This document shows, piece after piece, positions 1-60,545 of a stretch of DNA of 64,000 nucleotides (positions are counted from its first letter, which is position 1; the number at the start of each line of letters is the position of its first letter). Under the pieces are notes generated by a model. That model did no database searches, was not told the origin of the DNA, and saw nothing but the letters and a program-made list of their open reading frames with translations. This stretch comes from Plasmopara viticola (lineage: Eukaryota > Oomycota > Peronosporomycetes > Peronosporales > Peronosporaceae). The stretch covers positions 310,001 through 374,000 of the forward strand of contig MBPM02000061.1 of assembly GCA_001695595.3 (NCBI GenBank), in the 5' to 3' direction. Position numbers and translations under genes: made by a program.

Positions 1-3000
1 GCACCACAAATTGACGTGACAGAAGCTACAAAGGGCATCCTACCGCCTTTCAACAGCAAAGATCGCACAAATGGTCTAAGCTTTGATAGTCTTGTTGTCA
101 CGGATCTCAGTGATCTGTCCGTGACGGCGTACCATGTGGATGAAAACGTCCCGTTTTATTTTCGCGTCTCAGCTATGAACGCTGGTGGATGGGGACCATC
201 CTCCTTGTCAATGCCACAATTTGCCATCCCGACGGCGCAAGTGCCAGGTGCGCCAACAAACGTCTCGCTCACAGCGCTTGATGGCTCGTCGGTTGCGGTG
301 CGTTTCAGCTCCCCGGCAAATGACGGAGGGGCGTCCTTGGACGCGTACCGTGTTGAGTATGGTACAAGTCGGATCGTCGATGAAGTGCAGCAAATTCGGC
401 TGCGTGTTCCCGTGACGAATGAGATGCAGAAAATCAGCACAGTGACGGATACAGTGAGTGAAGTCCAGCTCGTACATTTGACAAGTTCGTTTACTGGTAC
501 AGTCGCGAATGAAGTGCAACAAGTAAATTGCGATGCAGACAGCAAAGCGGGAACATTTTCTTTTACCTTTTTGAGTGAGACAACGGCTCCTATCCCAGCA
601 AGTCAGAGTGATGTCACAAAAATTAAAGCCGTGCTGGAAGAGCTAAATGTCATTACGACCGTAACAGTGGCATTTACGGGCGGACAGACGACTGCGTGCA
701 GTCCGTGTCCGGTCTCCGGCTGCACAGCAGGGTTCACAGTCACCTTTACTTCTGTCCTTGGCCTTCAAGGTGACATGCCTCTTCTTACAGCCAATACGTA
801 CGATTTAGAAGGAAATCGCCGGATTGATATCACAGAGTCAGTAAAAGGCCAGGCGTCTGTCAGTGGCTCATTCAAACTCACGTACCTTCGAGGCAAAGAT
901 GCAGATACAGTAGCTCTCCAATACAATGCACCGGTCTCTGCGATTCAAGCAGCGTTAGCAGCATTGGATACGTCAGTGACGATCGTTGTAACGGATGGAA
1001 CGAGCACGTTACCAGGTGCGGATGTTGCCAGAGGCGAGCGGTTGTGGCGCGTCACGTTTCAAAATAGTGGATACGTGCCGGATATGGTAGTTCGACCGGC
1101 AAATTCGTTCTTACAGGGAAATGGCGCTGGGATTGTTGTGTACACTCGAGGGAAAACGCCAGATCCAAGTGTTCCAGTGTCTGTGGGAGGGAATCACGTG
1201 TCTGGGTTTTTCAAATTGACGCTTGGTGGTCATACAACGGAGTTAATTGAGCATGACGCGTCCGATACAAGTGTCAAGAGTAGATTAGAGGCACTACCGA
1301 ACGTCGGGTCTGTCACAGTGACGCGGTCGATGCCGTCACTAAAGAATGAGTACTCGTGGACTGTCACATTCATTTTGAACCCTGGCAATTTTCCTCCTGG
1401 TGCGGGAGACGTGGATACGCTTGCTGCTGATACGAAATTATTGACAGGCACAAATAGTCAAGTTGTTGTGTCGACGGTGCAGCAGGGGTCACTGTCCCTT
1501 GACGGCACATTTCAACTCGCGTACACTGTCGGTAGTGTTACGCAGACGACTGCCAATTTATCGCCATACGAGTCCTCAGATGGTATCCAACGAGCACTTG
1601 AAACCCTTACATCTATTGGTGGCGTCACTGTTTCGCGTCCGACTCAACCCGACGGCTACAGCTGGTTCGTCACGTTTAGTGGATGTCGTCTTAACCCGGC
1701 CGTGTGCAATATTGGAGACGTAAATCTACTTGCAAGCATTGATACAAATTTGATTGGTGGTCTTGCACCAGCAGTTCCCACAATCACTATAAGTGAAAGT
1801 GCTAAAGGAGTCGCACCGGCATCAACACTACTGGTAACGGATTTATCAGGAGGAGACCCATTCGAAACGATCATTACCAGTCTAACGTACGGCACGACGT
1901 ACTTTACACGCGTGTACTTTCGTAATGACGTGAGCTTTGGACACCGAGCACTGTCCTTACCCGAGTTTGTCACGACGCGAAATCTGCCACCAGGAGCTCC
2001 TTGGCCCGTGACTCTCGTATCGTCGACAGCGACGTCCATAACTGTCGCATGGGATCGACCGACGGTCAACGGTGGCGCCACCGTGAGTGGCTATGAGCTT
2101 TGGATCTCTGAGTGGGCTGAGGCCTCGTACAGAAAGGTGTACGACCGTCCAAACGATGCCGTAACGCTGCAAACGACGCTTTTAACAACAGCCGACAATG
2201 GAATTGAATCGGGCCACAAATATTCTTTTAAGGTGCGAGCAGTCAATTTCTGCTTGTCAGAGAATACCAATGCCGCGTGCTATGGAACCTTTAGCGACCC
2301 GATTGCGTACACGGTCCGAACGCCCGTTGTGCCGGATCCGCCTGCATCATTGACACGAGACTCACGTACCACAATCAATACAATTGCAGCAAATGACGGC
2401 ATTGCATTTGTCAATTGGGAACCACCACGGGATAACGGTGGCTCACCCGTGACCAGCTACAAATTGTTCATGGATGACGGAACGACCGGGTGGGTTCTTC
2501 AAACGCTTATTGGAACTTTTCCGCACGGATACACGCACAAGGTAGTAGGTTGCACTGAAGGCAAAGTGCTTCGTTTCTACATTCTTGCTGTGAATGGCGT
2601 TGGACCATCGGGAAAGAGTCCAATATTGGCTTTGGTCTTGGCCAATGTGCCTTCAGCTCCAGACGTGCCAAGTATCACGGACGTGTCGGCGACGGCAATT
2701 AGTGTGGCATGGCAACCGCCATCCACCTGCACGTCAACGCTTACTGGCTGCAATGGCTCACCACTACTTGGATACCGGCTGTGGCAGTTTGCAGGCGTGA
2801 CGGCGAGTTACACGGCATCCGGGTCACCGGTAAATGTAGAAATCCAACGCATTCGGACGACTGTAGCTGCTCCTGTGCCAGAGATTCAGAGCGTCACTGT
2901 TACTGGCGCCTCCGGCAAATTCAAGTTATACGTCAACTCCCAGCCAACGCCTTTACTAAGTGCCAGTGCCACAGACCTCGAAGTCCAGACTGCCGTAGCT

Positions 3001-5232
3001 ACTTGCGGGGTGAGTCCGACGAGTGTAGTGCACACGTCGACAGCGACGGGAAGAACGTGGATAGTTACGTTTGCCTTAATGGATGGCCCTCAACCGTTGA
3101 TGGTGGTTGTGCCCGATCAGCTTACGAATACAGTGCTTGCCGTCGCGTACACGACTTCTGTGACCCGTTTACAAGCAGGGACGACGGCACTTGGAGGCGA
3201 TTTCACGGTATCCTTTCGCGGATTCGAAACCGACCATTTATCTGTATTAATTGACGCTGTAGAGATGAAGCGGCAACTAGAGAATCTTCCGTCCATCGGC
3301 ACAGTCGAGATCACAGCAGTCACGGGTTCCAACAACGCCATGACTTGGGATGTGACGTTCATGACGGAGCTTGGGGACTTGCCGTTGATGAAGGTGACAG
3401 CTGGAAGGTTAAGTGGTGGCAATCCAACAGTCCAAGTCACAACGACACAAGAAGGAACGGCTGGTCGTATTATCTATGACGGAGCTACTTCGCCTGACAT
3501 TTTGACGTTTACTTCGACCAATTTGGTGCCCGATGCATTGCACGCCTTTGTCGTTGTCGCTATCAATGCGGTTGGCGAAGGAATCGGCGGTGTGGCAACG
3601 CCGGCTGTTGCTGCATCAGCTGGAGCGGCCAGTAGCTACACTGAAGCCTACGGCGGTGCTCTCGTGCAAGGAATGGCGGGTATTGTATACGAAGTCCAGA
3701 GCATAATCACCAGTGGCTTGACAAGCTCCTTTACGCTCCGCTGGGGAACTTCAGGTCCTTCGAGCGCGATCGACACGACAACTACTGCAAGCGCATTAGA
3801 GGCGATGCTACCGACGACAATCGACAGTCTTGGTACCGTTCACGTTTCTCGAGCAGATCTCAATGGCGCCGACTGCATTTGGTACATTACATTTGTCTCT
3901 GTCGTTGGTGACGCTCCAATGCTCGTATCGAGCGAGACGATCCACGTGCAGGTCGAGGAATTTGTCAAAGGCGAAGCCAATGAGTTCTTGATTGCTCCTC
4001 GAAAGGCATCGGGTGACGTGGTAACGTACGCAACGATGCCAGTGAGTTTTCAGGGCAAAGATCGGTTCTGGACGGAATTGTGGGCGTCACCTCCATCAGT
4101 TGTAGACGGCACGCACACGTTCGTGTCGGAAGGAGGCTTGGCTGTGTACAATCCAGTGATTTACGAGGTTCAAGTACTTACATTCAACGCAGTAACGGGT
4201 ACTTTTCGATTAAAATTGGACACAACCAGTGCCCGTCTGGGCGGCGTCGTGGCGATCAGCACTGCACCAGTGGACGCTGCCGTATTAGCTTCGTCCAGTG
4301 ATGCCGAAGCCGCCGACATAATCAAGAAAAGTATCGAAACCCTCGCTAATGTCGAAAGTGTACTCGTATCGCGAGTCTCCACTGCAGGAGCTGCACCCTG
4401 GACATTTTCCGTGACCTTCGTATCTGACTTGTGCGAACAACCGCCTTTGCAACTAATAGGCGATGCTGCATTCATGACCTCTGCAACGCTGCTAACGTCT
4501 ACCCCAGTACTGTTCCAGAAAATTCAAAACGGAGTGTGTGAAGTACAAACAGTGACAACGTCGGCCAGTGTCGAGTCGACCGCTCAAGTACAGTCGATTT
4601 CGACGTGGCTGGACGGTACTGGGTCCACCACTAGTCTCGGTGGATCTTTTGTCTTGACGTTTGCCGGTATGGGCAGTGTCACAGTGCCGTACAACGCGGA
4701 CGCTGTGACGATGAAAAGCCTGCTCGAAAGTCTCAATGGGATCGACGATGTCACAGTGACGGTCAAGGATGCCAACTACGGAACGCCGATAGCAACCACG
4801 GGACTGCAAACGTGGATTGTGACATTTAACGAAATTATGGGCGCTGTTCCCGTAATCACACTCGACTTGCCCACTTCTTTGACTGGAAGCTCCGCCACTG
4901 TTCTCATTAAAGAAGTCAAACGGATGGCACTATCGTTAGGAGGCACGTTTGTGTTAAACTTTATGAGTGAGACCACGCCTTCGTTGCCATTCGACATTGA
5001 AGCAGTCGATATGAAGATGGCACTAGAGACGGCGTTAAGGAACGTTCGCCAAGTAGACGTTCAAAAAGAAGAGCGGTACACTGGCAATCGATGGACCATA
5101 TCATTCACAAAGAACTTGGGAGATTTGCCACTCTTAGAAGCATTTCCGTACGCGTACGAAGTGCAGGAAATTACAACACTGGGTGGTTCGCCAACGCCGT
5201 TGGGAGGTTTTCACGTTATTGTTGGAAAGTGA
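1..5232 (+). CDS. Giant FN3/EVQ-module surface-type protein, 5' partial (first part, before frameshift)
   Basis: The frame is open from base 1, so the true start lies upstream; the first ORF codon at 16 is a GTG inside a repeat. It begins at the end of a guest module and the last strands of an FN3 domain. FN3 domains then start near 241, 1985, 2330 and 2647. Those at 1985 and 2330 look uninterrupted. The ones at 241 and 2647 are split: after the Y-x-V-E-Y or Y-x-L-W strand, guest modules run to about 1800 and 3460, and only then does the FN3 finish (strands ending R-V-Y-F-R-N near 1915 and V-V-A-I-N near 3565). From about 3680 to 5210 there are back-to-back EVQ modules, each with an E-V-Q strand, GTF-x-L, an A-L-E-x-L helix-like stretch, W-x-V-T-F and G-D-x-P-L. 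The frame stops at 5232 inside such a module, and the continuation is in the +1 frame from about 5200. FN3 domains bind or space in extracellular and ciliary proteins, and a surface or matrix role is inferred. There are no introns. The exact function is unknown. Confidence 0.93.
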   Translation, partial: APQIDVTEATKGILPPFNSKDRTNGLSFDSLVVTDLSDLSVTAYHVDENVPFYFRVSAMNAGGWGPSSLSMPQFAIPTAQVPGAPTNVSLTALDGSSVAVRFSSPANDGGASLDAYRVEYGTSRIVDEVQQIRLRVPVTNEMQKISTVTDTVSEVQLVHLTSSFTGTVANEVQQVNCDADSKAGTFSFTFLSETTAPIPASQSDVTKIKAVLEELNVITTVTVAFTGGQTTACSPCPVSGCTAGFTVTFTSVLGLQGDMPLLTANTYDLEGNRRIDITESVKGQASVSGSFKLTYLRGKDADTVALQYNAPVSAIQAALAALDTSVTIVVTDGTSTLPGADVARGERLWRVTFQNSGYVPDMVVRPANSFLQGNGAGIVVYTRGKTPDPSVPVSVGGNHVSGFFKLTLGGHTTELIEHDASDTSVKSRLEALPNVGSVTVTRSMPSLKNEYSWTVTFILNPGNFPPGAGDVDTLAADTKLLTGTNSQVVVSTVQQGSLSLDGTFQLAYTVGSVTQTTANLSPYESSDGIQRALETLTSIGGVTVSRPTQPDGYSWFVTFSGCRLNPAVCNIGDVNLLASIDTNLIGGLAPAVPTITISESAKGVAPASTLLVTDLSGGDPFETIITSLTYGTTYFTRVYFRNDVSFGHRALSLPEFVTTRNLPPGAPWPVTLVSSTATSITVAWDRPTVNGGATVSGYELWISEWAEASYRKVYDRPNDAVTLQTTLLTTADNGIESGHKYSFKVRAVNFCLSENTNAACYGTFSDPIAYTVRTPVVPDPPASLTRDSRTTINTIAANDGIAFVNWEPPRDNGGSPVTSYKLFMDDGTTGWVLQTLIGTFPHGYTHKVVGCTEGKVLRFYILAVNGVGPSGKSPILALVLANVPSAPDVPSITDVSATAISVAWQPPSTCTSTLTGCNGSPLLGYRLWQFAGVTASYTASGSPVNVEIQRIRTTVAAPVPEIQSVTVTGASGKFKLYVNSQPTPLLSASATDLEVQTAVATCGVSPTSVVHTSTATGRTWIVTFALMDGPQPLMVVVPDQLTNTVLAVAYTTSVTRLQAGTTALGGDFTVSFRGFETDHLSVLIDAVEMKRQLENLPSIGTVEITAVTGSNNAMTWDVTFMTELGDLPLMKVTAGRLSGGNPTVQVTTTQEGTAGRIIYDGATSPDILTFTSTNLVPDALHAFVVVAINAVGEGIGGVATPAVAASAGAASSYTEAYGGALVQGMAGIVYEVQSIITSGLTSSFTLRWGTSGPSSAIDTTTTASALEAMLPTTIDSLGTVHVSRADLNGADCIWYITFVSVVGDAPMLVSSETIHVQVEEFVKGEANEFLIAPRKASGDVVTYATMPVSFQGKDRFWTELWASPPSVVDGTHTFVSEGGLAVYNPVIYEVQVLTFNAVTGTFRLKLDTTSARLGGVVAISTAPVDAAVLASSSDAEAADIIKKSIETLANVESVLVSRVSTAGAAPWTFSVTFVSDLCEQPPLQLIGDAAFMTSATLLTSTPVLFQKIQNGVCEVQTVTTSASVESTAQVQSISTWLDGTGSTTSLGGSFVLTFAGMGSVTVPYNADAVTMKSLLESLNGIDDVTVTVKDANYGTPIATTGLQTWIVTFNEIMGAVPVITLDLPTSLTGSSATVLIKEVKRMALSLGGTFVLNFMSETTPSLPFDIEAVDMKMALETALRNVRQVDVQKEERYTGNRWTISFTKNLGDLPLLEAFPYAYEVQEITTLGGSPTPLGGFHVIVGK
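382..519 (+). repeat. EVQ ladder: four E-(V/M)-Q strands in close tandem
   Basis: Four copies of the strand that opens the EVQ module follow each other at codons 382 (EVQQI), 421 (EMQKI), 460 (EVQLV) and 511 (EVQQV), spaced 13, 13 and 17 residues. Only the last is followed by a full module (GTF, A-V-L-E-E-L, F-T-V-T-F). It looks like repeated duplication of the first strand. Similar short series occur near 2838 (E-I-Q then E-I-Q, 15 residues apart) and near 4540. Confidence 0.7.
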
Positions 5233-23200: not shown

Positions 23201-26200
23201 GTGCCGCCGTTGACGTACACGAGCCGATTGTACGCCGTGGGGGGCAAAGTGACGCTAACAGTGAATGGGGGGACCCAAATTGGCAGTCTCAATGGAGCTA
23301 CGTATTGTCCCTCTTTAGTCAACAACGTAATAGTAAGTGGAAGAACGAATTGCGGCGTGGTTGCTGTCGACGCCAAGACGACGTCTGTTCCGTTCGAATA
23401 CGTTATTGAAGGCTTGACGCCTGGCACTACGTACTACGCTCGTGTTGCGGCTTATAATGCACTCGGTTACGGACCAAGACGAGTTACAGCTCCACGGTCG
23501 TTGAGTGTACCATTCGAACCTCCATCAGCGCCACGATCACCATTCAACGGATTCGCACCACCACTTCTTACCCTTGCTGGGCCGACGTCTTTGATGGTGA
23601 GCTATGGTGCCCCACAATTTACTGGCGGAGCTCCAGTAACGGGCTACGTGATTGAATGGGATTTGTCGCCAGAATTCGATAGTGGCTCGAACGGCGATGC
23701 CCTCGGTCAAGTGACGATATCAGCTTCTTCTCTAGTCGCGGCTGTTGATCATGCTTTCCGGTATCGATTGAACGGACTCCCAAGCCGACAGTGGATTTAT
23801 GTACGGATGTTCGCCGAGAATGGCCAAATGGGAGCAGGCGTGCCCGTACTGACTGTACCAGCACGAGAGATGCCTCGAGGAAAGCCAGGTAGTTTAAACG
23901 GAGTGACTGTCGTCAACGATCGACGAGCTCAGCCTCTAGGAACGGCGCTATTAGTGTCGTGGCCTCAAGCCTCGGCTGATATCGTTCGGTACCAGATTGA
24001 GTGGTATCAACAAGCTGCGGTCGAACCACTTTACGGCGCGCCAGTGGTACAACTTGTCCGGTCCACGGGCACAATAACGGGAGGCTTCTTTGCCTTGTCG
24101 TTTGGGGACGGCAGTGAGTTGTATCCGTGGCGTTTATTGCCTGGAACCGTAGACGCTGAACACGGTGCAACGTTCTTCAAAACAAGTGAAGACTTGACTG
24201 GAGTAGTAGCTCCAGGTGACGTCGTGTTTCTCAATCAGCAGGCGTACTTGGTGTCGGCAGTCGGTACTTGTACAGCCTCGCAACTTCCACTAGCTCTTGC
24301 AACAGGCTACCAATCGGTTGGTACACTTGCCAGTTCACGAGGTACAACACCCACGACGTATGCTGGAGACACAGTATTCGGTGCCAAGCTTTACACTCAA
24401 TGGCGCACGACCCCTTTGCCCATGGACGTCACACCTTTAGACATGCAGGAAGCATTGGAGATGCTGCCAAGTATTGGCTTGGTCCGTGTCGAGCGTCGGT
24501 CAACTGGAACCAACACGTACGAATGGACAGTCACCTTTACGTCGCAAGTGCCGCAAACGGACCCGGCGTTTCCTATGCTCACAGTAAACGATCGCTTACT
24601 CACACCGACGGGCACTGGAGCCGATGCGAGCGTTGGCGTGACTTTTATCACATCCGGACAAAAACCGCAAGCTTTTGGGTCGGCACTTGTCGGCACGCAA
24701 GAGACTGTAGTTTCTGATGGTGTATGTAGGTATAGTATCCCTCACCTTGAAACGGGAATAGTCTACTTTGTTCACGTGGCTGCAGTCAACGACCGTGGAG
24801 CTGGCGCGTTCACTTCAGCTTCAACGTCTGGTGTTGTGCCTACAAGAGTCCCACAAGCACTGAAGAATGTTTTAGTTCGTCCGCTCTCACCTCACCGTTT
24901 GGAAGTTGCATTCGATCAAGCGCAGACTTCAGGAGGACGCGAGGTCAACGACTATCGTATCGAAGCTGCCCTTAACGCTCAATTTACCGAGCCTTCTATC
25001 GTTCAAGATCGACTGCCGACTACCAAATACGCTCGCGTCACCACTGCTGCCCTCACTGGCCCCTTCCTCGCAGGCAGCACCTTCTCCTTGGCTGCAGTCG
25101 ATACGCGGTCTTTTCACGGTACAATGACACACCAAGTGGATGCGTTGGCTTCGGCACAGGCGCTCGCTGCCGGGTCTGCTTTCCTGTTACGACTGAAACC
25201 AGATAGCACACTAGGATACGGAGCTGCTTCGTTCTCTGACGCGTTTTCTCGAGGAGAAATGGTCCGTATCCGAAATGACCAAGCAACGGTTTGTCTCGAT
25301 GGCAACGTGGCGTGGCAACTCTGGAAAACGGATACAGGGCTCACGATTGCTGGATACAGTGGCACAACGATTACGCTATCGGCACCGCTTAGCACAGCTC
25401 TCCAACTCGTGGTTGGTGTAGGCACTCAGCTCGCAGTTGGCGAAGCAGCAAAAGGCCCAGCAGACCCAGCAGCCTGTCAAGCTGTCGTGACGGCAGTGAA
25501 CGCCGACAAGCTGCACGTGGATGTTCGGCATGTGTGTATCAATCTAGGAGTGAAATTTGCCAGCGGATTGTCCGTCTTTGTCGTCAAAGGCGTCGCACCA
25601 ATCACGAGTGCTTCGTACGATGCTACTACGGCGACGATTACCTTGTCAACGGCTCTAGACAATCGTCTCGTCGATATCGTCGTAGCAAACACTTGGATAT
25701 CCATCGGGACGACACTCGAAGGTGCCGCGACATGTCGTGCTCGGGTTACGACTGCGACGACGACGACTTTGACGTTAAGTCATCAATGTGCCGAAGCTGC
25801 AATCAAATTAGGGACGGGAAATCCCAACATTTACATCCACCGCGGGCCCGCGCTGCTTCCTCTGTGCGAGCGGCAAGATCCGTGGAAAGCACTGGAGGCG
25901 TCAAGTATCGCGTCGCTACTTGCTAGCTTCGATGCGTCAGGTGGACGCGAGCCATTGCCAGTATTTCGTAGTGACTCGGCTGTGAGTGTAGCGACTGAAC
26001 TTGGTACAATTGGAAGCAGTGAAGAGGTCCAGGTGGTAAGTGGAGTGACACTGAATTGTGGTGACTATATTCGGTTAGGCAGAGCATCCTTTGATGAGCC
26101 AACAGCCGAAGACATTGAAGCGTTAGCAACGTTTCGGGTTCGCGGCAAGTGTGACACCAATGGATGCGACTGCGTGCGCTCTGCTACGACATCTTTACAG

Positions 26201-29200
26201 CTTGGAAGTTTGCAAGACCCAACGAAAGCTGTTAGTCTAGCACCACGGCTTGATCTCCTCCATAAAGGAGCAACACGTGAGATCCAACGGATCGTATTGA
26301 CTGTCACGGGGCCTGCTGTAACTTACAACACTGGAGGATTCCGAGTCCAGTTTGGAAACGAAGTAAGCTCTCTTGCTCTAGGGACAGGTGGCAACGGCGG
26401 CATGTCGTTGAACGATGATGTCGGGTGCCTCGTATGGGCGTCTGGTCCGCTCGCGAGTGATGCGGCTCGCGATATGTTGGCACTTGAACGGGAGCTTGAG
26501 AATTTTGCCGGCATCGACGATGTCCGAGTGAAACGTGCTATCACTGAGACGTCAGGAGTCCGCGTGACGGTCGAGTATACAGTCGAATTTATGGGCGTTC
26601 AAGTAAGCGGCAGAATGCCAACCCTCCAGATTATTGACGTGGGAACCAATGGCTGTAGTGTGTACGTTGGTGGATCAGCAGGGAGTCCAACCGTCCAGCG
26701 AGATCAAAACAGCTATGTCACCATTTACCAGGCACCCACAACTCCCGTCATTCCTTTCGATGCCACTGACGCTGACGTCAAGGCTGCTCTCGAGACATTA
26801 AGTGTTGTAAGCAACGTGGACGTTACTCGCCAAGTGAACAGAAACGGCTACGACTGGCACGTCACGTTTGTCGTGTTTCCGGCTCCCGCAGCGGACGTGG
26901 AATCGAGTGTATTTCCCACTCTGACTGCCAATGGTTTTGCGTTACAAGCTGTCCAGTCCCCTCAAATTAGCGTCACTTCATTTCAACGTCTTGAAGTGGA
27001 CACGAAATTGTTGGCAAGTGGTGGTGGAGTGCCGATCTACACGCGCGTGCGTGCTCATAATGCAGACGGATGGGGTGAGGCAACTATGCCTTCGCCGGCA
27101 TCACTGCAACTTGCGACACAGGTACCCGGTGCCGTGCGTCTCCTACGCGTCGACGTTTTGTCGACTTCCCAACTTCTCCTTCAATGGGACGCACCCATTC
27201 ACGATGGCGGAGAACCCGTGACAGAATTCCGTGTCGAGTGGTGGTTGCATGGTACTGCGCCATCGGTGGCTAAGCCCTTTGCAGTGGTTCACGCACTCGA
27301 GGCAGCGTCGCAGAGTGTAACTGATGATGTTGCGACGATCACCGTATCGGCTCCAAAAGCCGGAACTCATACGTTTCTCGCGGGTACGTTTCGCGTCGGC
27401 TTTGACGGGCAATGGACCTCGGAGCTACGGTGCGATATTTCAGCCTTAAACATGCAGACGGCACTTGTCGCGCTCTTTACGATCGAAAACGTCTCGGTGA
27501 GTCGTGAATTGACTGCTGGTGGATACACGTGGCTCGTGACGTTCTTACAGCGCAAATACGGCGGCAACCAACACAAGCAATGGCACTCGATGCTTGCTAC
27601 GCGTCCTCCATTCGGTTACAAGCTCGAGGTATCGGGTGTCAATCTAGTGGCGTGCACGACGGCTGAGCTTTCAAGCTGTGTGCCACACCTTGCTACACTT
27701 GTGGCACCACGCGCTGCTATTGATGCCACACCAGAGCTGCAGCACCTCGTGTGCATTTCGACGGGTAACGTACTTGTAGATGCGTCCATGAGTTTCAAGC
27801 TGAAACTATTCGGCTTCGAGACGGCTTCGATCCTAGGAACAGCTACTGCGGAAACGTTGGCGACAGCAATCACAGCTCTGGGGGCCGCTGGAAGCGTGAA
27901 TGTACGTTTCCGAGACACAGCGCAGACGACCGTATGTTCTTCGAGTGCAACGGCTAGAGGCTTGACGATTGAATTTACGACGGCACAGGGGGACGTACCA
28001 CTACTTGTAGCTACAACTACGAACGGTGTAGGCGTCACGATCAAGGAACAACGAAGAGGTCGAGCTGCGTTACATGTGGGAAGGCTCCCATTCGCCTACG
28101 TGATCGATGACCTTACGATGGGGACATATCATGCACGAGTTGCTGCATACAACAGTGTAGGTTTTGGACCATTCCAAGACGCGACAGATGGCAACGGTCT
28201 GCTATTAGGCGCACGTCCACCGCTTGCACCTCGATCCCTTCGTGTCCAGGCAAAGATGATTGATTATTCCCATGGAATCCTCGTGGTCTGGACAGCCCCG
28301 CGCAGTGACGACAGTAATATCAATCAGTACCGAATCGAATGGGACTTTGGCGTGGCGTTTTCAAGTCAATGCGGAGAAACCATTGAATGGCAGACAATTG
28401 TAGTGACCAACACTTTGGCCAACGCCGCAAACCGAAAATTCACGGTGCGAACGGCAAACGGAGGGACAAAGGTCGGCTGTGTGGACCCAACGAGTTTAGC
28501 TACGTCCCTACAGACGCCATTGCAAGCACTTGGAGGCGTCTATACTGGCGGCACGGTGGCAATGCAGGGCGATGATTCAGCAACGTACGATTACGGTCGT
28601 ACGTACACGGTAAAGTTTCCTCAAGCTCTAGTTGTTCCTAGTGTAGGTTACGATGCCGCCGAGAGTGCTGCCGCCGCCACGTCTCCCGTTGACATCCCAG
28701 TGCTGTTCTGGGATTCGACCGATCTAACGTGCACCGCCACGCCTCCCGACTCGGTGGCGATACAGCGTACAACGTACGGCCCGGGACTCGACGACAAGCG
28801 TGGGCAAGGACGCATTGGTGTTGATGCAGCCAATACTTTTCACGACGAATGCTCGGCGGATTTAGCCGGTCCACTCGCTCGTCAGACAATTGCTGCTTCG
28901 AAAGCAATTGAACATGCCTTAAAACCAGAAATTCTGCACCTTGCAGCCAAGAATGGTGTCTTTGAAAGTGCCGATCTCGCTCGACCAGCTCTGTGCGAGG
29001 CTTGCGTGCAAAAACTCACAGCAGACGGCAAGTTGACGGTCACGGCGTCGTTGGCATTAGCTGCAGGTGACTACTTTCTAGTAGCCGATTCCCCGACGAC
29101 AAGCACGTCGAGCGCTACTCTTCGCTGTGTGATGAAAGTTGCAAGCATGAGTGGCACTCTGATCAACGTTGATCTTGTGGATCCTGGCCGCAGTGCGTGC

Positions 29201-29374
29201 GAACTCCCCGTGACGTACGAGGCCAAGGCTTGGCGCATTTCGCGGTTTGAACTCCGAGCACATACGATTCAAGACCTGGTGCCGGGACGAGAGTACGCAG
29301 TTCGAGTCATTGCAAGCAATACGTTAGGTGAAAGTCCTCCACTCACTACAGCTTCCACGATCGCCGTGACGTGA
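5183..29374 (+). CDS. Giant FN3/filamin/PA14 multidomain protein (continuation of the same gene, 3' complete)
   Basis: This is 8,063 codons without an intron, ending at the TGA at 29374. The listed start is a GTG inside a module, so the frame is a continuation of the coding region that ends at 5232, not a separate gene. Order: the rest of an EVQ module; PA14 at about residues 143-278; filamin-type Ig repeats (about 6045-7715), the third interrupted by guest modules; a further interrupted filamin repeat; PA14 at about 1630-1776; more filamin repeats with guests; PA14 at about 2985-3130; then about 17 FN3 domains starting near 14611, 15340, 15715, 16630, 17000, 18185, 19250, 19980, 20410, 21465, 22100, 22730, 23515, 23880, 24850, 27120 and 28210. 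About 12 of these 17 carry a guest between the Y-x-V-E-W strand and the P-G-x-x-Y-x-x-R-V strand. The protein ends in an FN3 with no transmembrane segment or GPI-like tail. PA14 usually binds carbohydrate or acts as a spacer at cell surfaces. An adhesive, matrix or ciliary scaffold is inferred. Any signal peptide lies outside the window. Confidence 0.94.
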   Translation: MVRQRRWEVFTLLLESERTVPIVYDATDVAMKFALQSLPTIGLVDVTRTDRLDPGNRFSWQVTFRSQLGDINNLMADSSGLTGSFANVTVTELARGNQHALTGQFPQLSVFKKQNGRPNYSARYIPYETSDMYSVAVQQLLPGGLLALYFDNYWQQDEPVISRVDSQVNFDWGQGAISNYGRDYISIRWFGKLAVPMTDTYVFYISSSEGVRVWLDHQLRVDTWDTGEDEGGTQENFNEVLKTNTFYDVRIEYHEATGAAAISLSWSSSYLSIATIPSTALFHCEHIAGSPYPISVTPGATDFPYTTAFGDGLTRATAGVTAQFLIQAKDQNGNNKTTDGDVFDVEITGSNTGTATGVRLAPFEEPKYVGQGQYLVQYLPAISGSYTISVQTINGVDIYCGLGKLYKCSPFALIVASGPATPHTSQALGNAATTTYGILDGLVEAVAGLVSNFTVQARDTYTNAANADDIFETKMVLQSDRTIRYRSNVLISTQTGLYTVEYSIPRAGVYEIQTYLNGIPILMCPGGLTCQTLNTPAILTVVHSFLHGPSCTVDDTATGALSTATSGHQTFFTIYARDTFGNLRKGDRTMHSLTTGDGRSDAFLVTFKGANDVFCTSSAVQTLTSNDKTFTGYFKLSFGKFRKRLCPLCVVALAGDVLAVSTNLVGLLLPGTKFVVQECIFTAASVTSTSVSVATNHGCIAFTAQALALQVASSTTAATEALTPLISHDVSASGLQSILQDLHVSAKIAVSRINLGAGYQWKVTFLSHLLEWSEAHLAVEYTSGFASSLYAHPLVVAYTAATGTYPVWYTPHYAGQYTVAVTTWDQEIHVKGSPFTLVVADDATHGPSALAATGDWRVENYSMAAQQMVVEAGKTLNFQVQLKDKRRLEQQAVRLRAVVLAPVQEVQRVRVDASPFTLSFRGSPASASLTTSSSFASIKTALEALATITSGGVTVTPENPGDATALLNQAFLVTFVKVTGSLPLMISPNAGATVTRLVSGVVSVRQEVQTLTCTSSVAVALAGSFSTSIQGGAPVSIAASDTLTTLASTLSSLVGSSVSVTAENAIQTSVCAQTTSSRLFITFSLLLGDIAPLTYTMPVGSPLTVAGEDNTDNSVSGIYPAWGSFTLSLPGRAEATVNIPFSASATAVENALEALSLVDSVTVTRDWFDVTTETAAAKLVTLAQWTVTFDSHSGNLPELIPDYTGISMRDDGQHKAFVETVERVRGSVGNNRSVTTTSDTLVTMTTSRENPGVLEVQELLCRGNQAFTLTYGGVSKVIAPDASLSELETQLNTIPAGVQLFATLDGVRRPAAELSTPSLFIPVCSVTNPHTIEIVFKAPADMPFIAWSSTNNDVYITEAVKGFAPNEIPLKISNFEVQKLQCQVTAAAAATASFDLSFAGDRITVGANTVPSAFQTQLNGMKSIVRAGGVDVTTLSPQICTATASSIDVTFRNVGDQLAMIISQVRDGILVAQLAETTKGLDALVYDGSHQGLFNVSATPVISGTYTLGVTVQNLATFCPPSFQVQPTLASGATSTHTAPAVVTQGVTAWFSVQAIDRFSNLLESSTELGPEAFVATLLPSSTQSLPSSFSENYPVSITESHPNTNGIFSLNFVPQQIGMYTLSIVRRQAGGLWATYYTTADFTDSYMSHQDAVVAFQWGETSPLGDPFPNRNYSVRWKGELRAAVTGQHVFTLRADNAVALSVDGNVLLDLFATPTVSSSVNKFDSLSIELIAGSFYSLVISYRTTNAQSFIQFEWRCQTAGLMRTVVPSASLYTLTALVNTPFTIQTYPGAINSTQVRNSLDGLMTTNVSDAPIVTKALEPISFVLESHDAFGNCRYHSGSDTFEVSMMAVDGWARIGKMYEVATNSAIQYDPTFICKACAVGFVPNTRTLTLNVDVASQLEVGVRFRVLNANSGTLARRRDCFFTTESIAGPFNAGAVAVVVVAANGCEAFAGSQFDVSAIAPTDWNYVGTCSVLSGSTSLTSCSRDFGLKRGDQLVVGQEVNSIHYTAGVFNTVTIPLQQSYRGASSDLVPVFKAGDATGRHTVAMVPYVKGLYQLSVRLPAIDAVYAVMSQATSALGGSFYLSVAGQTTAALSFASLGTDVKTALEALSTVGVGNVATSLSCTSGDATRGCRWLVTFRHLAETVASSLTTSYSGVLTGNDAIVTVQILTAPKAAQMIHGFPKNVRVDPGNMNPSISTAYGPGLYTSTSGILASFFVQMKDTHGNNLESDTSSLQVQIFPSGTFYLPSQVAQESSIEYVAEGLYNVSYTPILSGRHTVVVTAQTSPEVHQVSSAFAVPGTSRGGTFALRLFDQTTAPLVFEANSTDVQQALLNLPVFASFLSQTTAIAVTRVVNSQNGFDYLITYTRLPPSLRLELVQTVNNLYSGDGGGGATLSATVQTSQSREHVKTSITWGEPIINEVQVVTVTSTAALTGGSFQLQFGAYTTDLIPYNAPAAVLETLLNQLPPIGANGVSVSLTSSIATSRSYTVTFLAATTGTPQTAFWSSVVYTPNRIVRHDRLVGDIPALAPTSTHTLVAGINPDGQVAVSTLVSGVSPFTTIVAHGALVPNQCTAVDESTPSKPGSINAVGQNGLHSGRYHSRSSFLIEARDANGNLLDGTGGGVSGAPVQEVQIIETFNLAGPGNRLTGTFAFVFDGQRTAAVPANAGIHEVEAALEAHSTLSGFITVDTPDVQVLVTTGTVIVAKTSNILTTSASLLTVPDFAVGDWIRVGSLTGPVFTVTAITATIITLSGIYQGTSSNVANVYKQSDPGSGFTYSVYFAAELGDVPALVVDTTELGGTGKAKVTACDYLRTQQLQSTAMTQISGTFSLSFRDSVTRMLPWNVDATTLRDALEDLDGIYSAVVDTPVAGTNGGYTWQITLVSTETNGDEDLALLYAEGYLLRGKQAHLQVSPVCPATKTRENVNVWSVSGSQGHAFVPVLRGASTVVADVSYLGGAKYKALYDTPREATYALDVRYVAPRGLLGSYFDNRWLYGIPALERVDPQIDFMWYEDHITQSSREHVSVRWHGYVKPPFSENFVFFVVVNDGARLWIENELVIDQYDYETSTTVEFQANASVALIKDRLAEITLEYRENSGLASVSLMWQSHTQPKGIVPSSRLFHRSDAIQKSPFRVQTQSSKPSPPTNVSLTISGVDALTVHFQAPDDNGGAPVTQYQVEWWTYGGYGSLEVQVVKIATTNTGGTFTLTLDSNQVTGPLLLTVLPSDMEVALEALDGAGDVTVTSVVSATSRDFIVTFKSRVGVVPVIQIDATQLVGSKASMVCSKGIVQALVNGMQCTSVESTTSSVQLLSSPIVFAPPDVPKRGDSFSFLLTGLTQPAASVAPTAPGAVGDSTGPGFSVRVLAKNSAGYGLPSATASLKPMAVPAAPTNVKLRLVAGSSTSLRLWWDAPTTNNGAIVTNYVVEWRRLEPIANTSTLELFASFRDTPGSFLAAYPTSLRYKYTVTDLVPGVAYVVQVRAENVMGVGPSGQATPSSQKPQSKATPVLSGEVALSTRLVSPVVSTAASCTTLLLSWLPVPIENDNGAAVTSYVVDWYQPQLVDKSPFEVQMLQIIGKDAADIVRGTFRVQYSGTFTEALPVDASELALKSSLEALPALRSVDVERTSMASRGGYQWAVTFLSETPSVVGKVLSIDSTRLMATILSTDVGAQLDSAHVGSSSITVTATQGSNQVTSTDTAATNALVTMYLSVAPFGLWRVTGVTVVAGTATLTLSAPFSGANGNYVAQVGWTVPGVLPPDFHSKQIPATSSTEPYTLVLDTLPSGTAYTARVSACNSLGCNAPTTATPSTLAAPKQKPASPRDVALFTDGASTLRVQWRHPSSDGGDVITHYRVEWDVHSTFDSGDRGNSGSSGGTSLGYERKAVMNPGVDCLLTLCETVVGSLVRGTPYYARVYAYNSYGYSGEAGYPVLPGYGVPKTLPEPPAAVLLTPLNASTDVGLTVSFNTSSHSSDNGGDDVTQYQIEWDAMDIEAIVPDVVARISSAQTVETISTNLINNVLFAEYTTQIVLLSATAYDIRGSFRLAFLDAVTPSVPWDVSAETFTALLEALPTVGRVNVRRIAAGFGFAWFVTFLTAPFRADTSTFADVYGDLPLLRVSTDSTQLLAAFSTSQSATNSLTGTGARLATATLIRAFNGFEQQGIKVSTSAGILTGFFRLSYDQQQTASIPANASATTVKQALTDAVTYIGDIRVFKRQSATPTGFVYTILYKSRLGPNYPLVNCVGTDLSSSLATATTLCETTRAQGGRLPAMTSSLYGVVVLKKTDLNISDNGMAHYDVQKLRRAVGYHVRVAAWNGVGDVFGDTRASTPARFTVQSIPDHPRDITVEPRSSSTLLVMCTPPLNTEETLISNYTVQIAARQGIAEQQVIRAESSLGDLSIRRLVLELRVGNVMGSIQVMGNISSDALHSSLTDALNVPGAIASVSRTSVGIFSNYGYEWVITFDDAIGDVPLIKFTEASYEVFNRSPDFMLALALSVTEKIKGSIDGPTLPPASVFTTIVTPYHEIQRIFIYSGSPVDLSGTLSLSFGGESTVALATSATADDVREALEGLATAGEVTVTVSAPVLERAILPATRHGVYWDVTFISSTNDLPLLGVRTDSTLPFTSTACGGSLRGVTPCVDIYTLVQGGLSPQTTLKQLSNSTNYIVRIAASNDHFTSQFATALGAFQPVARPPLAVQNTLVAPLAADTLGVSWQAPRDDGGARITHYKIQWDVSASFDLQNIFAGSDSVDVHDELWYVYRITGLSSSKQYFVSVVAYNARGYGISVTAQPVDAHDRVTHVTVSGATLDETALATETMTLSFANYPTKTVTVGLTSSALEMQSALQRLPVVGILSVKRSDYSKGPTATPYDTSGVSTPSDLLITWSITFRTASIDGVRASALGNLVVTYTGSNTVTSFEVVAPIEDGSLSIQPRPVSATGPRDVLLSVVDVASLGVSWLPSLASLTTKYLVEWSSNPDFAVCRAGSITSSGIRTSYAIAAANSQVVNAATIRADGRIAYTIGGLPANTKQHVRVSAYNGNYGSPVLAQVLFVRNPTTPDDEAFVRILPQVISLMPQVVPPFRPTSVTMQVSSNDQPTQLEVNFVQPTQDAFGFTAGNGGAPITHYRLSWWDPSELAVTANAIASYEVRMVDQTGAALTCFPAPCQFRLGAEVQSLSLTPDAVAGTGSFRLVLSSLTFTTLVCTTCTVAFTAAIDGVVTMDYTGTSPNLQTVLGTNARFQVDKLGAACIFEVAASATLPANNLPLRFLSAANGAPACPLPLTQATYTIHVEPTTACIPASTNAAGLATAVSGLVDNDAVDVSLDIASSLIRRFQITFTGSSASGASGTSIAHIADVAQLKVVAMDGTGGCTDASGNAWTGTEINGGFLTPGVAYAVQVAALNSAGLGAPMRATAICHDTPCFAGDAALAPAAPPLAPNAVTVASNRADRTALNVIWKAPTSTNGAIVTQYLVEYSTANFAVQPLLCTGCVTAFTTGTAVLAPTLTLSSNTVLTSGQLVVLSSLSPVCILTVSKDVATFIRTAWTGALVVYNLERQHGCDGFTGQSSNLKALLDSATDSSVAVFPRADELQSTVLKPLTPGKQYTIRVRAQNREGYGAPQTAAFVCEPGIELCTAAGTLATTRQLPASPALIVPSQLLGAGVAGATSNILGFTRTSLTVAFRDPNRWSGLEIVDSFRVEWDTAADFSSSDKQTMIVTPSASTPPSRWLTRQLCASCITDLVTATGTLSVSGGLGLSFGLANNDWILVGAASITCSFQVANTAPTTSAITVLGGHGCADFTGKTLSLDAQETYVYQLTTGLSMGVLTHIRVAAHNSLGFGPPSDSIAVAPITSSDPPPSPYVALTVLTSDEEEDSDVRVSSLRVSFPPPAMSLTDTNGDGGSPVTKYLVEWVDTMEFASTIPQVQTISTTSDSSGSVAGSFVLTLDTTTCALCSIQGVFTTSALSASASVENMAQELENLPNVGDVAVTRDGCTTKNQCTWAVTFVSELGVVPPLTYTSRLYAVGGKVTLTVNGGTQIGSLNGATYCPSLVNNVIVSGRTNCGVVAVDAKTTSVPFEYVIEGLTPGTTYYARVAAYNALGYGPRRVTAPRSLSVPFEPPSAPRSPFNGFAPPLLTLAGPTSLMVSYGAPQFTGGAPVTGYVIEWDLSPEFDSGSNGDALGQVTISASSLVAAVDHAFRYRLNGLPSRQWIYVRMFAENGQMGAGVPVLTVPAREMPRGKPGSLNGVTVVNDRRAQPLGTALLVSWPQASADIVRYQIEWYQQAAVEPLYGAPVVQLVRSTGTITGGFFALSFGDGSELYPWRLLPGTVDAEHGATFFKTSEDLTGVVAPGDVVFLNQQAYLVSAVGTCTASQLPLALATGYQSVGTLASSRGTTPTTYAGDTVFGAKLYTQWRTTPLPMDVTPLDMQEALEMLPSIGLVRVERRSTGTNTYEWTVTFTSQVPQTDPAFPMLTVNDRLLTPTGTGADASVGVTFITSGQKPQAFGSALVGTQETVVSDGVCRYSIPHLETGIVYFVHVAAVNDRGAGAFTSASTSGVVPTRVPQALKNVLVRPLSPHRLEVAFDQAQTSGGREVNDYRIEAALNAQFTEPSIVQDRLPTTKYARVTTAALTGPFLAGSTFSLAAVDTRSFHGTMTHQVDALASAQALAAGSAFLLRLKPDSTLGYGAASFSDAFSRGEMVRIRNDQATVCLDGNVAWQLWKTDTGLTIAGYSGTTITLSAPLSTALQLVVGVGTQLAVGEAAKGPADPAACQAVVTAVNADKLHVDVRHVCINLGVKFASGLSVFVVKGVAPITSASYDATTATITLSTALDNRLVDIVVANTWISIGTTLEGAATCRARVTTATTTTLTLSHQCAEAAIKLGTGNPNIYIHRGPALLPLCERQDPWKALEASSIASLLASFDASGGREPLPVFRSDSAVSVATELGTIGSSEEVQVVSGVTLNCGDYIRLGRASFDEPTAEDIEALATFRVRGKCDTNGCDCVRSATTSLQLGSLQDPTKAVSLAPRLDLLHKGATREIQRIVLTVTGPAVTYNTGGFRVQFGNEVSSLALGTGGNGGMSLNDDVGCLVWASGPLASDAARDMLALERELENFAGIDDVRVKRAITETSGVRVTVEYTVEFMGVQVSGRMPTLQIIDVGTNGCSVYVGGSAGSPTVQRDQNSYVTIYQAPTTPVIPFDATDADVKAALETLSVVSNVDVTRQVNRNGYDWHVTFVVFPAPAADVESSVFPTLTANGFALQAVQSPQISVTSFQRLEVDTKLLASGGGVPIYTRVRAHNADGWGEATMPSPASLQLATQVPGAVRLLRVDVLSTSQLLLQWDAPIHDGGEPVTEFRVEWWLHGTAPSVAKPFAVVHALEAASQSVTDDVATITVSAPKAGTHTFLAGTFRVGFDGQWTSELRCDISALNMQTALVALFTIENVSVSRELTAGGYTWLVTFLQRKYGGNQHKQWHSMLATRPPFGYKLEVSGVNLVACTTAELSSCVPHLATLVAPRAAIDATPELQHLVCISTGNVLVDASMSFKLKLFGFETASILGTATAETLATAITALGAAGSVNVRFRDTAQTTVCSSSATARGLTIEFTTAQGDVPLLVATTTNGVGVTIKEQRRGRAALHVGRLPFAYVIDDLTMGTYHARVAAYNSVGFGPFQDATDGNGLLLGARPPLAPRSLRVQAKMIDYSHGILVVWTAPRSDDSNINQYRIEWDFGVAFSSQCGETIEWQTIVVTNTLANAANRKFTVRTANGGTKVGCVDPTSLATSLQTPLQALGGVYTGGTVAMQGDDSATYDYGRTYTVKFPQALVVPSVGYDAAESAAAATSPVDIPVLFWDSTDLTCTATPPDSVAIQRTTYGPGLDDKRGQGRIGVDAANTFHDECSADLAGPLARQTIAASKAIEHALKPEILHLAAKNGVFESADLARPALCEACVQKLTADGKLTVTASLALAAGDYFLVADSPTTSTSSATLRCVMKVASMSGTLINVDLVDPGRSACELPVTYEAKAWRISRFELRAHTIQDLVPGREYAVRVIASNTLGESPPLTTASTIAVT
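5609..6015 (+). other. PA14 domain 1 of the giant protein
   Basis: The encoded segment opens with GGLLALYFDNYW, has the D-x-Q-V-N-F-D-W strand, then Y-I-S-I-R-W-F-G, Y-V-F-Y-I-S-S-S-E-G-V-R-V-W-L-D and a closing I-S-L-S-W-S-S strand. This is the usual PA14 order (LxxxYFD, V-D-xxx-F-W, SVRWxGxL, YxFxxxSDDGxRLWID, VxLxWxS). A filamin-type repeat starting S-P-Y-P-I-S-V follows directly. Confidence 0.88.
6045..7715 (+). other. Filamin-type Ig repeat block, third repeat interrupted
   Basis: Filamin-type repeats are recognised by a G-P-S or G-D-G-L start, A-G-x-x-x-x-F-x-I-Q-A-(K/R)-D near the middle, and G-x-Y-x-V-x-Y-x-P-x-x-x-G-x-Y at the end. Two full repeats lie at about 6045-6430 and 6435-6810. 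A third starts near 6830 (F-F-T-I-Y-A-R-D-T-F-G-N) but only finishes at 7585-7710 (Y-P-V-W-Y-T-P-H-Y-A-G-Q-Y and S-P-F-T-L-V-V). An EVQ-like module and a CxxC module lie between its two halves. Confidence 0.75.
7118..7320 (+). other. CxxC four-cysteine module, copy 1
   Basis: The encoded segment starts C-P-L-C, then a strand with L-A-V-S, a G-T-K-F-V-V-Q-E-C strand and a closing S-V-A-T-N-H-G-C. The pattern is CxxC, about 30 residues, C, about 20 residues, C. It sits inside an interrupted filamin repeat. Confidence 0.65.
10073..10510 (+). other. PA14 domain 2 of the giant protein
   Basis: The segment opens with GGLWATYY, has V-V-A-F-Q-W-G, then Y-S-V-R-W-K-G-E-L, H-V-F-T-L-R-A-D-N-A-V-A-L-S-V-D-G-N and a closing I-Q-F-E-W-R-C strand. 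The usual acidic calcium pair of PA14 is less obvious (A-D-N-A-V). It is preceded by a filamin-type repeat (G-M-Y-T-L-S-I) and followed by another (P-F-T-I-Q-T-Y-P-G). Confidence 0.85.
10815..11080 (+). other. CxxC four-cysteine module, copy 2
   Basis: The segment starts F-I-C-K-A-C, followed by L-T-L-N-V, a strand G-V-R-F-R-V-L-N, then R-R-D-C-F-F and A-A-N-G-C. It is inserted in a filamin-type repeat whose first half (F-V-L-E-S-H-D-A-F-G-N) ends near 10800 and whose last strands appear near 11320 (H-T-V-A-M-V-P-Y-V-K-G-L-Y). Confidence 0.65.
14135..14570 (+). other. PA14 domain 3 of the giant protein
   Basis: The segment opens with RGLLGSYFDNRW, then V-D-P-Q-I-D-F-M-W, V-S-V-R-W-H-G-Y-V, F-V-F-F-V-V-V-N-D-G-A-R-L-W-I-E-N-E-L and S-V-S-L-M-W-Q-S. 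The match to the PA14 pattern is very close, including the N-D-G-x-R-L-W strand. It ends the filamin/PA14 half of the protein; the FN3-rich half begins straight after it near 14610. Confidence 0.9.
20785..21010 (+). other. CxxC four-cysteine module, copy 3 (inside an FN3 domain)
   Basis: The segment starts L-V-C-T-T-C-T-V-A-F, with later single cysteines in A-A-C-I-F-E-V and A-P-A-C-P-L. It lies within the FN3 that starts near 20410 and finishes near 21380. Confidence 0.65.
21624..21870 (+). other. CxxC four-cysteine module, copy 4 (inside an FN3 domain)
   Basis: The segment starts L-L-C-T-G-C-V-T-A-F, then L-T-L-S-S, S-P-V-C-I-L-T-V and R-Q-H-G-C-D-G-F-T-G. It is the whole guest of the FN3 that opens near 21465 (Y-L-V-E-Y) and closes near 21990 (Y-T-I-R-V-R-A-Q-N). 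Confidence 0.7.
22366..22590 (+). other. CxxC four-cysteine module, copy 5 (inside an FN3 domain)
   Basis: The segment starts Q-L-C-A-S-C-I-T-D-L, then L-S-V-S, W-I-L-V-G-A-A-S-I-T-C-S-F-Q-V and G-G-H-G-C-A-D-F-T-G-K. The G-C-x-x-F-T-G ending is shared with copy 4, so the two are close paralogues. The host FN3 resumes at H-I-R-V-A-A-H-N. Confidence 0.7.
28990..29230 (+). other. CxxC four-cysteine module, copy 6 (inside the last FN3 domain)
   Basis: The segment starts A-L-C-E-A-C-V-Q-K-L, then L-T-V-T-A-S-L-A-L-A-A-G-D-Y-F, L-R-C-V-M-K-V and R-S-A-C-E-L-P. The final FN3 strands follow (L-V-P-G-R-E-Y-A-V-R-V-I-A-S-N). Confidence 0.65.
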
Positions 29375-55230: not shown

Positions 55231-55415
55231 TATTGGAAGTTACCAGTTACCTCGGTTTGTACCGGTTTTTTAGGCTATCCAATACGAGTGGCTGTCCGAC
55301 GGTTAAAACAAACACCTATGGCGTCATGAAAAGACACATGGATTGGCGCACTCGAGATGGTTGCATCCGGATGTGACAATGATTGCACCCGATTGGAAAG
55401 TCCTTCTGATTGGCC
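55231..55415 (+). mobile_element. LTR-like sequence, family 2
   Basis: It starts just after the purine tract (GGGAAAG) with TATTGGAAGTTACCAG, a decayed TGTTG start, and is shared in part with 54029-54312 on the other strand. It is followed by gag of the next plus-strand element. Confidence 0.55.
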
Positions 55416-55454
55416 GCCTTTGCAATGGACATCTCTGCTTCCAGTCAAATCAAC

Positions 55455-58400: not shown

Positions 58401-58890
58401 AAGTACAGACCAAGATTACGAACGACATCCTGCAGAAGTTCAAGATGGACAACAGCAAGTCCGTACGGTCGCCACAAGATCCAGGTCCAAGTCAATGCGT
58501 GGAGGTGGTTAAAGCACGATGTGACAATGGCGGGTGTGCAGTACCGAATCGCTGTGGGCTGCCTTATGTATCTTATGGTTGGCACGCGTCCGGACCTTGC
58601 AGCAGCAGTGAAAGTGCTTAGCCAGTTTGCTGCGAACCCGGCCCGACACATGAGCAAGCTTTCAAGAGAGTATTTCGCTATGTCCGAGGCTCAAAGACGC
58701 ACGGCATCGAGTTTCGAGCAAGCTAGGATGAAGGTCTTCAAAAATACCTGGTTGTGGACTGGGCCGAAGATACCGGATCAAGACGAAGAACAAGTGGCTA
58801 CGTATTCATGATGAACGGTGGGTGCGTCAGCTAGAAGAGCAAGAAACAGCGAACAGTGGCGCAACCATTGACAGAGGCTGGGTACATGGG
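55455..58890 (+). mobile_element. Ty1/copia element, near full gag-pol, degenerate (family 2)
   Basis: Gag runs from N-N-F-D-G-A near 55455 through V-L-E-E-C-N-P-L-E-V-V-S-G to about 55945. The CCHC knuckle C-H-Y-C-G-E-C-G-H-W-I-A-K-C is intact near 56095, and the protease remnant is V-W-L-V-D-L-G-A-T near 56265 (Leu where Ser is expected). Pre-integrase L-G-H-I-G-H-A-G-L is near 56690. Integrase P-T-F-G-G-K-R-Y-F is near 56895 and Y-T-S-Q-L-N-G-V-A-D near 57140. Reverse transcriptase pieces run from 57900 (D-Y-E-E-T-F-A-P-I-A) to 58640 (Y-R-I-A-V-G-C-L-M-Y-L), and RNase H start G-Y-V-F-M-M-N-G-G ends near 58890. Many stops and shifts. Gag is like that of 53307-54028, so same family, opposite strand. 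Confidence 0.88.
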
Positions 58891-60276: not shown

Positions 60277-60529
60277 CTTTTTAGGGGTTTCCGGTAATAT
60301 ACACAACCTAACCCGGTCCAATCCAAACCGCGGTTCAACATAGTTCTAACTTTTGAGGGTTCAAAGTAATCACGTTATGTAAAATGAGGGATTACAAGAA
60401 TTAGAAGTGTAAGTCCCATTAAACAATCACTTCCACAAAATTCTTCTTCTGCTTGAGTGTCTCCGCTTCAATTCTCCTCCGTGCAAACTCTTTGCTACTA
60501 CTTCTTCGACTTTATCAGATATTTCAACA
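60277..60529 (+). mobile_element. 5' LTR, family 1, about 253 bp
   Basis: It runs from TTTTTAGGGGTTTCCGGTAA to TTTCAACA, a decayed TGTTA...CAACA. It matches the 257-bp LTR at 62270-62526 on the other strand block by block (CCGGTCCAAT, CGCGG-TCAACATA, GTATG/GTTATGTA-AATGAG, AGAAGTGTAAGTC, TCTTTGCTA). Gag starts 17 bases later, so this is the 5' LTR of the next element. Confidence 0.8.
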
Positions 60530-60545
60530 ACTGTTGACGACTGCG

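Follow-up and report, generated by a model that had tools for sequence, protein, structure and literature searches.

The window analysed here comprises 64,000 nucleotides of the Plasmopara viticola genome (positions 310001-374000 of contig C61; 92.9 Mb, 358 contigs). Its first 29,374 bases (1-29374, forward strand) make up most of one giant gene, whose start lies 2250 bases upstream of the window, at L009:7751. The gene encodes 10,556 residues over two reading frames and contains many FN3 domains, a large fraction of which are interrupted by other domains, and it is this nesting that we describe. The first reading frame (1..5232, +) contributes 1743 residues in the window and 2493 with the 750 upstream codons (L009:7751-10000), while the second (5183..29374, +) comprises 8063 residues and terminates in the C-terminal half of an FN3 domain. 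The frame change (5150..5260, +) falls within a repeat of the commonest guest module, termed G1, and was left as assembled. The start of the protein is hydrophobic and, judged by eye, resembles a signal peptide, directly followed by an FN3 N-half; the protein is probably secreted.

Split and uninterrupted FN3 domains

In order to place the FN3 units, we ran in-house FN3 profiles for N-halves and C-halves along both frames. Neither profile detected four of the 44 halves, which we placed by eye (the C-halves of units 4, 5, and 20 and the N-half of unit 19). The resulting table contains 22 FN3 units, all on the forward strand, of which seven are uninterrupted and 15 are split after strand C. A sequence-only reading of the window had estimated that about 14 of 22 FN3 domains are split; this agrees with the 14 split units that lie wholly inside the window, the fifteenth being unit 1, whose N-half is located about 2.1 kb upstream (L009). 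Between strands C and E lie 109-724 residues in split units, compared to 15-40 in intact ones, where these lengths take in strand C' and linkers. The sequence-only reading had given 60-650 residues for the guests. Counted in the same way, the stretches of the split units sum to 4562 of the 10,556 residues. Linkers joining adjacent FN3 units are short (-1 to 40 residues in 19 of 20 cases, 148 in one).

Unit 1 is represented in the window by its C-half (103..210), its N-half and most of its 724-residue stretch with seven G1 matches lying upstream. It is followed by unit 2 (244..1950), in which an N-half (244-363) and a C-half (1855-1950) enclose a guest of short EVQ strands and four G1 repeats, by the uninterrupted units 3 (1990..2292; Pfam and unit table) and 4 (2341..2646), and by unit 5 (2662..3621), which is split by a guest with two G1 repeats. 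The series resumes in the second frame with the split unit 6 (14615..15322, one G1), the uninterrupted unit 7 (15344..15667; Pfam and unit table), unit 8 (15734..16600), which is split by G1 followed by a second small module, G2, and the uninterrupted unit 9 (16634..16972). Units 10 (17003..18148) and 11 (18194..19228) are both split with two G1 repeats, whereas units 12 (19256..19546; Pfam and unit table) and 13 (19991..20308) are uninterrupted and have a free-standing G1 between them. Four split units follow: 14 (20417..21412, one G1), 15 (21473..22039) and 16 (22160..22705), both without a G1 match in the guest, and 17 (22778..23488, one G1). Behind the uninterrupted unit 18 (23546..23854; profile calls and unit table), all remaining units are split, namely 19 (23864..24823, one G1), 20 (24854..27130, two G1), which is parted by 688 residues and is the weakest host, 21 (27128..28186, two G1), and 22 (28238..29350, one G1), whose C-half is the end of the protein. 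The starts of the seven uninterrupted units (1990, 2341, 15344, 16634, 19256, 19991, and 23546) are within 31 bases of those proposed in the sequence-only reading (1985, 2330, 15340, 16630, 19250, 19980, and 23515).

The half-domain pattern was evaluated in 42 sequences, i.e. 37 homologues and five frames of the source genome, which we took as three genes; two of the homologues, P0008 and P0038, contain no FN3. Adjacent calls alternate between N-half and C-half in 747 of 833 cases, compared to a mean of 434 and a maximum of 469 in 200 label shuffles. The gaps from N-half to C-half are bimodal, with 170 of 379 pairs at up to 70 residues and 199 at 70-1100 (10 longer ones were dropped), and the gaps from C-half to N-half have a median of 24 residues. 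The profile positions point to a common insertion site, as originally suggested: 239 of 300 N-pieces stop at positions 35-59 and 199 of 264 C-pieces begin at 55-69 of the 97-position profile.

We additionally examined whether the two halves belong to one fold. Five units were compared half by half with the Pfam family fn3 (PF00041); their halves match complementary parts of it and none matches the whole, so that the halves do not appear as independent domains. With the guest removed, as had been proposed, five of ten split hosts scored above the PF00041 cut-off, four scored below, and one had no match. Five of the seven intact units (3, 7, 9, 12, and 13) were above the cut-off. Two AlphaFold2 models, one covering unit 2 and the other unit 8 together with unit 9, reached predicted local distance difference test scores (pLDDT) of 87 and 85, and each builds one closed FN3 from both halves of the split unit. 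The predicted sandwich is seven-stranded in units 2, 3, 8, and 9. A titin FN3 superposes on model residues 3-585 (99 residues, 1.7 Å), spanning the guest region of about 480 residues. The best matches of both models include titin FN3s, and chains of the insulin receptor and IGF1R also matched. The models and their comparison with solved FN3s support the view that the host is one closed FN3 from which the guest leaves via one loop in units 2 and 8, as had been predicted.

Conservation of the split pattern

The 37 homologues include proteins from Phytophthora, Pythium, Globisporangium, Aphanomyces, Saprolegnia, Ectocarpus, and Triparma, besides many unnamed ones. The closest among those compared is from Phytophthora nicotianae, with 79% identity over 1677 aligned residues of the first frame and 77% over 6021 of the second. 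Database labels are mostly unnamed or hypothetical; a few read Titin, Twitchin, or Projectin/twitchin. The P. nicotianae orthologue is annotated as two proteins, Twitchin and Titin (P0003 and P0040), apparently on one contig (longest contig 65964 in both), which leave its middle part uncovered.

Homologues are split in the same units wherever positions could be matched. In unit 2, a gap of 492-516 residues is shared by eight of 15 compared sequences, including those from Saprolegnia and Ectocarpus and P0014, whose CCRYP prefix we take to denote the diatom Cyclotella cryptica. A split of 132-293 residues is seen at unit 8 in 14 of the 15 sequences, a rough comparison in which the gaps of P0014 and P0016 exceed those of the direct alignment, and 12 of 15 have an uninterrupted unit 9 (24-41). 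All seven sequences that are collinear over the end holding unit 3 have this unit uninterrupted as well (20-26). Other cells of the comparison were empty or mis-mapped, including gaps that were negative or thousands of residues long, and were dropped; for first-frame units, the rows of P0007, P0015, P0017, and C47p are non-covering proteins or paralogues. An apparently guest-free unit 16 in Triparma (gap 15) was likewise discarded as alignment noise. Since the split or intact state is kept across lineages, the pattern is, assuming vertical descent, older than the divergence of oomycetes and brown algae. Judged from these sequence comparisons and on the same assumption, the inserts were already present in an ancestor shared by the compared lineages and are not fresh.

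G2 is missing while G1 is kept in eight of 21 rows of the unit 8 alignment (P0009-P0012, P0014, P0016, P0017, and P0019). One of these, P0019, is labelled Alexandrium tamarense, a dinoflagellate, and groups with the rows lacking G2. Transfer, contamination, or a wider family are possible; the family may thus reach beyond stramenopiles, or the label may be wrong.

The guest module G1

G1 is a repeat of about 96 residues, which matches 44 times in the giant gene and 121 times when all five giant frames of the genome are counted. It is contained in the guests of 13 of the 15 split units, and 27 of the 44 matches lie in the stretches between strands C and E of split FN3s. At L009:7940-8100 and window positions 370-520, guests may begin with short repeated strands (EVQxIxTSA) ahead of the first G1, which are strands in the unit 2 model.

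No Pfam or NCBIfam family matched G1 above its cut-off where a cut-off was shown (best E-values over 16 repeats 0.0021 and 0.012), and weak matches to POTRA, Plug, and beta-lactamase, below the Pfam cut-off where shown, were dropped. In PHROGs, ten of 16 repeats matched "tail sheath" (best E-value 6e-5) and seven "major tail protein" (1.3e-4). Among solved structures, G1 is homologous to the tail tip protein gp23 of phage Bxb1 (9d93), which it matched with an E-value of 3.1e-32, or 9.7e-34 with a broader profile; the broader profile also matched the Bxb1 major capsid protein (1.4e-4). Foldseek placed gp23 at ranks 2, 3, and 8 for the unit 2 model (E-values 1.2e-9 to 5.7e-8), yet with whole-chain template modelling (TM) scores of 0.12-0.13. 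A phage link sought via the first 194 residues of the window was abandoned, as the matches sit on the FN3 part and not on G1, and the search was redone with a single G1 repeat. With this query, tblastn (limit E 1) returned 676 phage records, nearly all from mycobacteriophages, with a best E-value of about 1e-4 among the matches listed. G1 was also found in at least 19 bacterial loci, 11 of them planctomycete and four actinobacterial by title; all 19 hold G1 matches. Among the matches listed for these loci, the G1-bearing frames showed no FN3 N-half and one weak FN3 C-half.

Nesting in filamin domains and within G1

Nesting goes beyond what the sequence-only reading described, in that filamin domains also host PA14 and G1, and G1 itself hosts a second module. 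The second frame contains a whole filamin domain (6080..6427, +) and further ones at 6497..6763 (+) and 11777..12118 (+). Two pieces of the window scored 85.9 and 54.5 bits against the Filamin repeat (PF00630, cut-off 26.9) and a third scored 15.3, below the cut-off. Another filamin domain (6854..7699, +) is parted by a G1-bearing guest at profile position 55/64, with profile positions 11-55 at 6854-7024 and 64-112 at 7568-7699. The gene has three PA14 domains (PF07691, cut-off 24; 80.5, 62.2, and 59.6 bits), located at 5609..6031, 10073..10507, and 14138..14560 (all +), and judged by their flanking sequence all three sit inside filamin domains, between strands F and G. A filamin-end pattern (SPFxV-like) follows 38 of 52 PA14 domains in the family as a whole.

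Residues 2647-2806 of the second frame hold a G1 (13121..13600, +) that is interrupted by G2 (about 13271-13474) between its third and fourth strands. Family-wide, 62 of 458 N-C pairs of G1 halves have gaps of 40-400 residues, some of which may be adjacent repeats with one half missed. In Bxb1 gp23 (L019:4928-6985), two C-parts with weak scores come after three N-halves of G1. The one-repeat proteins of phages RhynO and Kimona (L018, L020) align to both ends of gp23; repeats 2 and 3 therefore seem to lie inside repeat 1, and by sequence the three G1 of gp23 appear to be nested concentrically. In the Aphanomyces protein P0038, a TIG-like domain seems, by eye, to be parted by a long G1 array from about residue 700.

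A tentative generalization, which we consider somewhat less likely than its opposite, is that G1 acts as a recursive plug-in with ends close together, which would spread by entering loops of beta-sandwich hosts (FN3 after strand C as well as filamin and TIG-like domains), and would take up other modules or itself between strands 3 and 4, in stramenopile giants and phage tails alike. The giants would then be matryoshka-like branched fibres, in which tension would not reach a guest before its host opens.

Discussion

We estimate a probability of roughly 80% that the gene encodes a giant secreted protein with 22 FN3 and several filamin hosts, in which 15 of the 22 FN3 domains nest guests at a common loop to give a side-branched surface or matrix fibre. 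The chain would exit the sandwich after strand C, form one or more guest domains, mostly G1, and then return to complete the same sandwich, and filamin domains would host G1 and PA14 likewise. If the host folds, the guest is off the main chain by topology. The main chain would run from pole to pole through closed hosts, with guests hanging from a side loop, and the backbone would be shorter than the sequence length suggests. Hosts would bear the pull, guests being loaded only once their host opens. At the cell surface or in the matrix, such a fibre could display guest and PA14 modules, putatively for binding, and contain hidden length. The split layout, its common site, and its conservation in homologues are observed in the sequences, and closed host folds in two predicted models; from there we infer a function as a secreted, load-bearing, side-branched fibre.

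Several observations weigh against this interpretation. Seventeen of the 44 G1 matches lie outside split FN3s, one of them free between two FN3s, and G1 is therefore not solely a guest of the FN3 loop. Eighty-six of the 833 adjacent half-domain calls do not alternate. Among the joined hosts, unit 20 had no Pfam match, unit 5 matched in its N-half only, and units 8, 10, and 16 remained below the cut-off. The closed host fold is a prediction for two of the 15 split units, modelled from 15 and 9 aligned sequences. Lastly, the assembled copy contains the frame change near window position 5200. However, P0013, P0014, P0029, P0033, P0041, and P0046 each align on both sides of it as one protein, with 1-8 residues between, and therefore intact copies exist.

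The alternative that survives best concerns the origin of the hosts, which may have arisen by duplication of one host-plus-guest unit rather than by repeated insertion into a tolerant loop. The single site and the mostly single guest family in all units speak for this possibility. A tree of the 22 hosts does not distinguish between the two origins: split and intact hosts are not separated (6 changes of state compared to 6.1 after shuffling), and no branch is starred. On the other side, the guests differ (G1, G2, and others), and G2 is absent from part of the unit 8 rows; we regard duplication as possible, but somewhat doubtful. It is unlikely that the protein or its guests belong to the flagellar hairs that stramenopiles carry, the tubular mastigonemes. 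The lineages concerned do form flagellated cells with such hairs, and three chains of 9ufe were among the first seven rows obtained with the G1 profile, i.e. OCM5 (E-value 0.019), a tubular mastigoneme protein (0.25), and OCM6 (0.36), OCM presumably standing for Ochromonas mastigoneme. None of these values is significant for a database search, though, and the aligned parts are single stretches of chains of 366-723 residues, far smaller than the giant protein.

We consider it very improbable that each half is a small domain in its own right, or a decayed remnant, instead of both forming one FN3. Each half is detectable alone, gaps reach 724 residues, and two of the ten joined hosts lack a full fn3 match; against this stand the match of each tested half to only half of fn3, the single sandwich closed in the models, the alternation of calls, and the conservation of gap lengths across lineages. 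An assembly or gene-model artefact, to which the frame change might point, can practically be dismissed given open frames of 2493 and 8063 codons, the similarity to the P. nicotianae proteins, homologues of other species that run through, and related giant frames on contig C47.

Single domain inserts in hosts of this kind are known. In integrin beta, an I-like domain is inserted in a loop of the Ig-like hybrid domain. As predicted for the giant protein, a folded domain occupies the loop of an Ig-like host, but integrin beta is an animal receptor with one insertion and an unrelated guest. The insert of the insulin receptor domain FnIII-2 is located in the C-C' loop. FnIII-2 of the insulin receptor is described as an FN3 with a long insert (PMC2577065, PMC6200814), a likeness to the giant protein that extends to IGF1R (PMC2577065). 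This insert was too disordered to be visible in the crystal and holds the alpha/beta cleavage site as well as residues that take part in ligand binding (PMC2577065). Both receptors have one such FN3 per protein, in contrast to the 15 of 22 in the giant protein, where the guests are folded in the two modelled units. The sequence-only reading, which knew of no described protein with this layout, needs correction in that FnIII-2 is a well-known precedent for a single insert (PMC2577065) and the family itself is already in databases. Among the matches listed from the open-licence literature, which includes few subscription journals, no paper described one giant protein with guests nested repeatedly at fixed loops. 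In a paper on Aurantiochytrium zoospores, the terms fibronectin, FN3, PA14, and filamin are absent from the main text (PMC12221091).

Titin, twitchin, and projectin, after which some homologues are named, share long FN3-rich chains with the giant protein. Titin is an intracellular muscle protein with Z-disc and M-band parts, an uninterrupted bead string with a kinase. The giant protein differs in its signal-peptide-like start, nested guests, filamin, and PA14 domains, and no kinase turned up when nine pieces of the window frames, which exclude the 750 upstream residues, were scanned against Pfam. Bxb1 gp23 and other minor tail proteins of mycobacteriophages share G1 with it, in gp23 seemingly inside itself; they are much smaller and were compared on G1 alone.

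The hosting of guests at fixed loops by 15 of 22 FN3s and by filamin, kept from oomycetes to algae, is apparently undescribed in the open-licence literature searched. The layout is old and shared by water moulds, a brown alga, and other algae, and would result in a branched fibre rather than a bead string. If this is true, giant surface proteins can be branched by nesting and not only strung in line, and the family would offer a natural set of hosts and guests for testing force shielding and loop tolerance. It also links a family of domains, present in phage tails and bacteria and absent from Pfam, to a giant family with some members labelled titin.

Genomic surroundings

The frames flanking the giant gene resemble an elicitin, a SWEET transporter, and an arginyl-tRNA synthetase, names that were assigned by eye from the neighbouring open reading frames only. 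Rfam and tRNA scans of the window gave no matches. Pieces that look retroelement-like by eye (gag/polyprotein-like) are located at 55343-60955. On contig C47, two further giant genes of the same kind lie at 255857-278122 (+) and 278299-300493 (-), seemingly tail to tail, the second of which consists of two overlapping frames.
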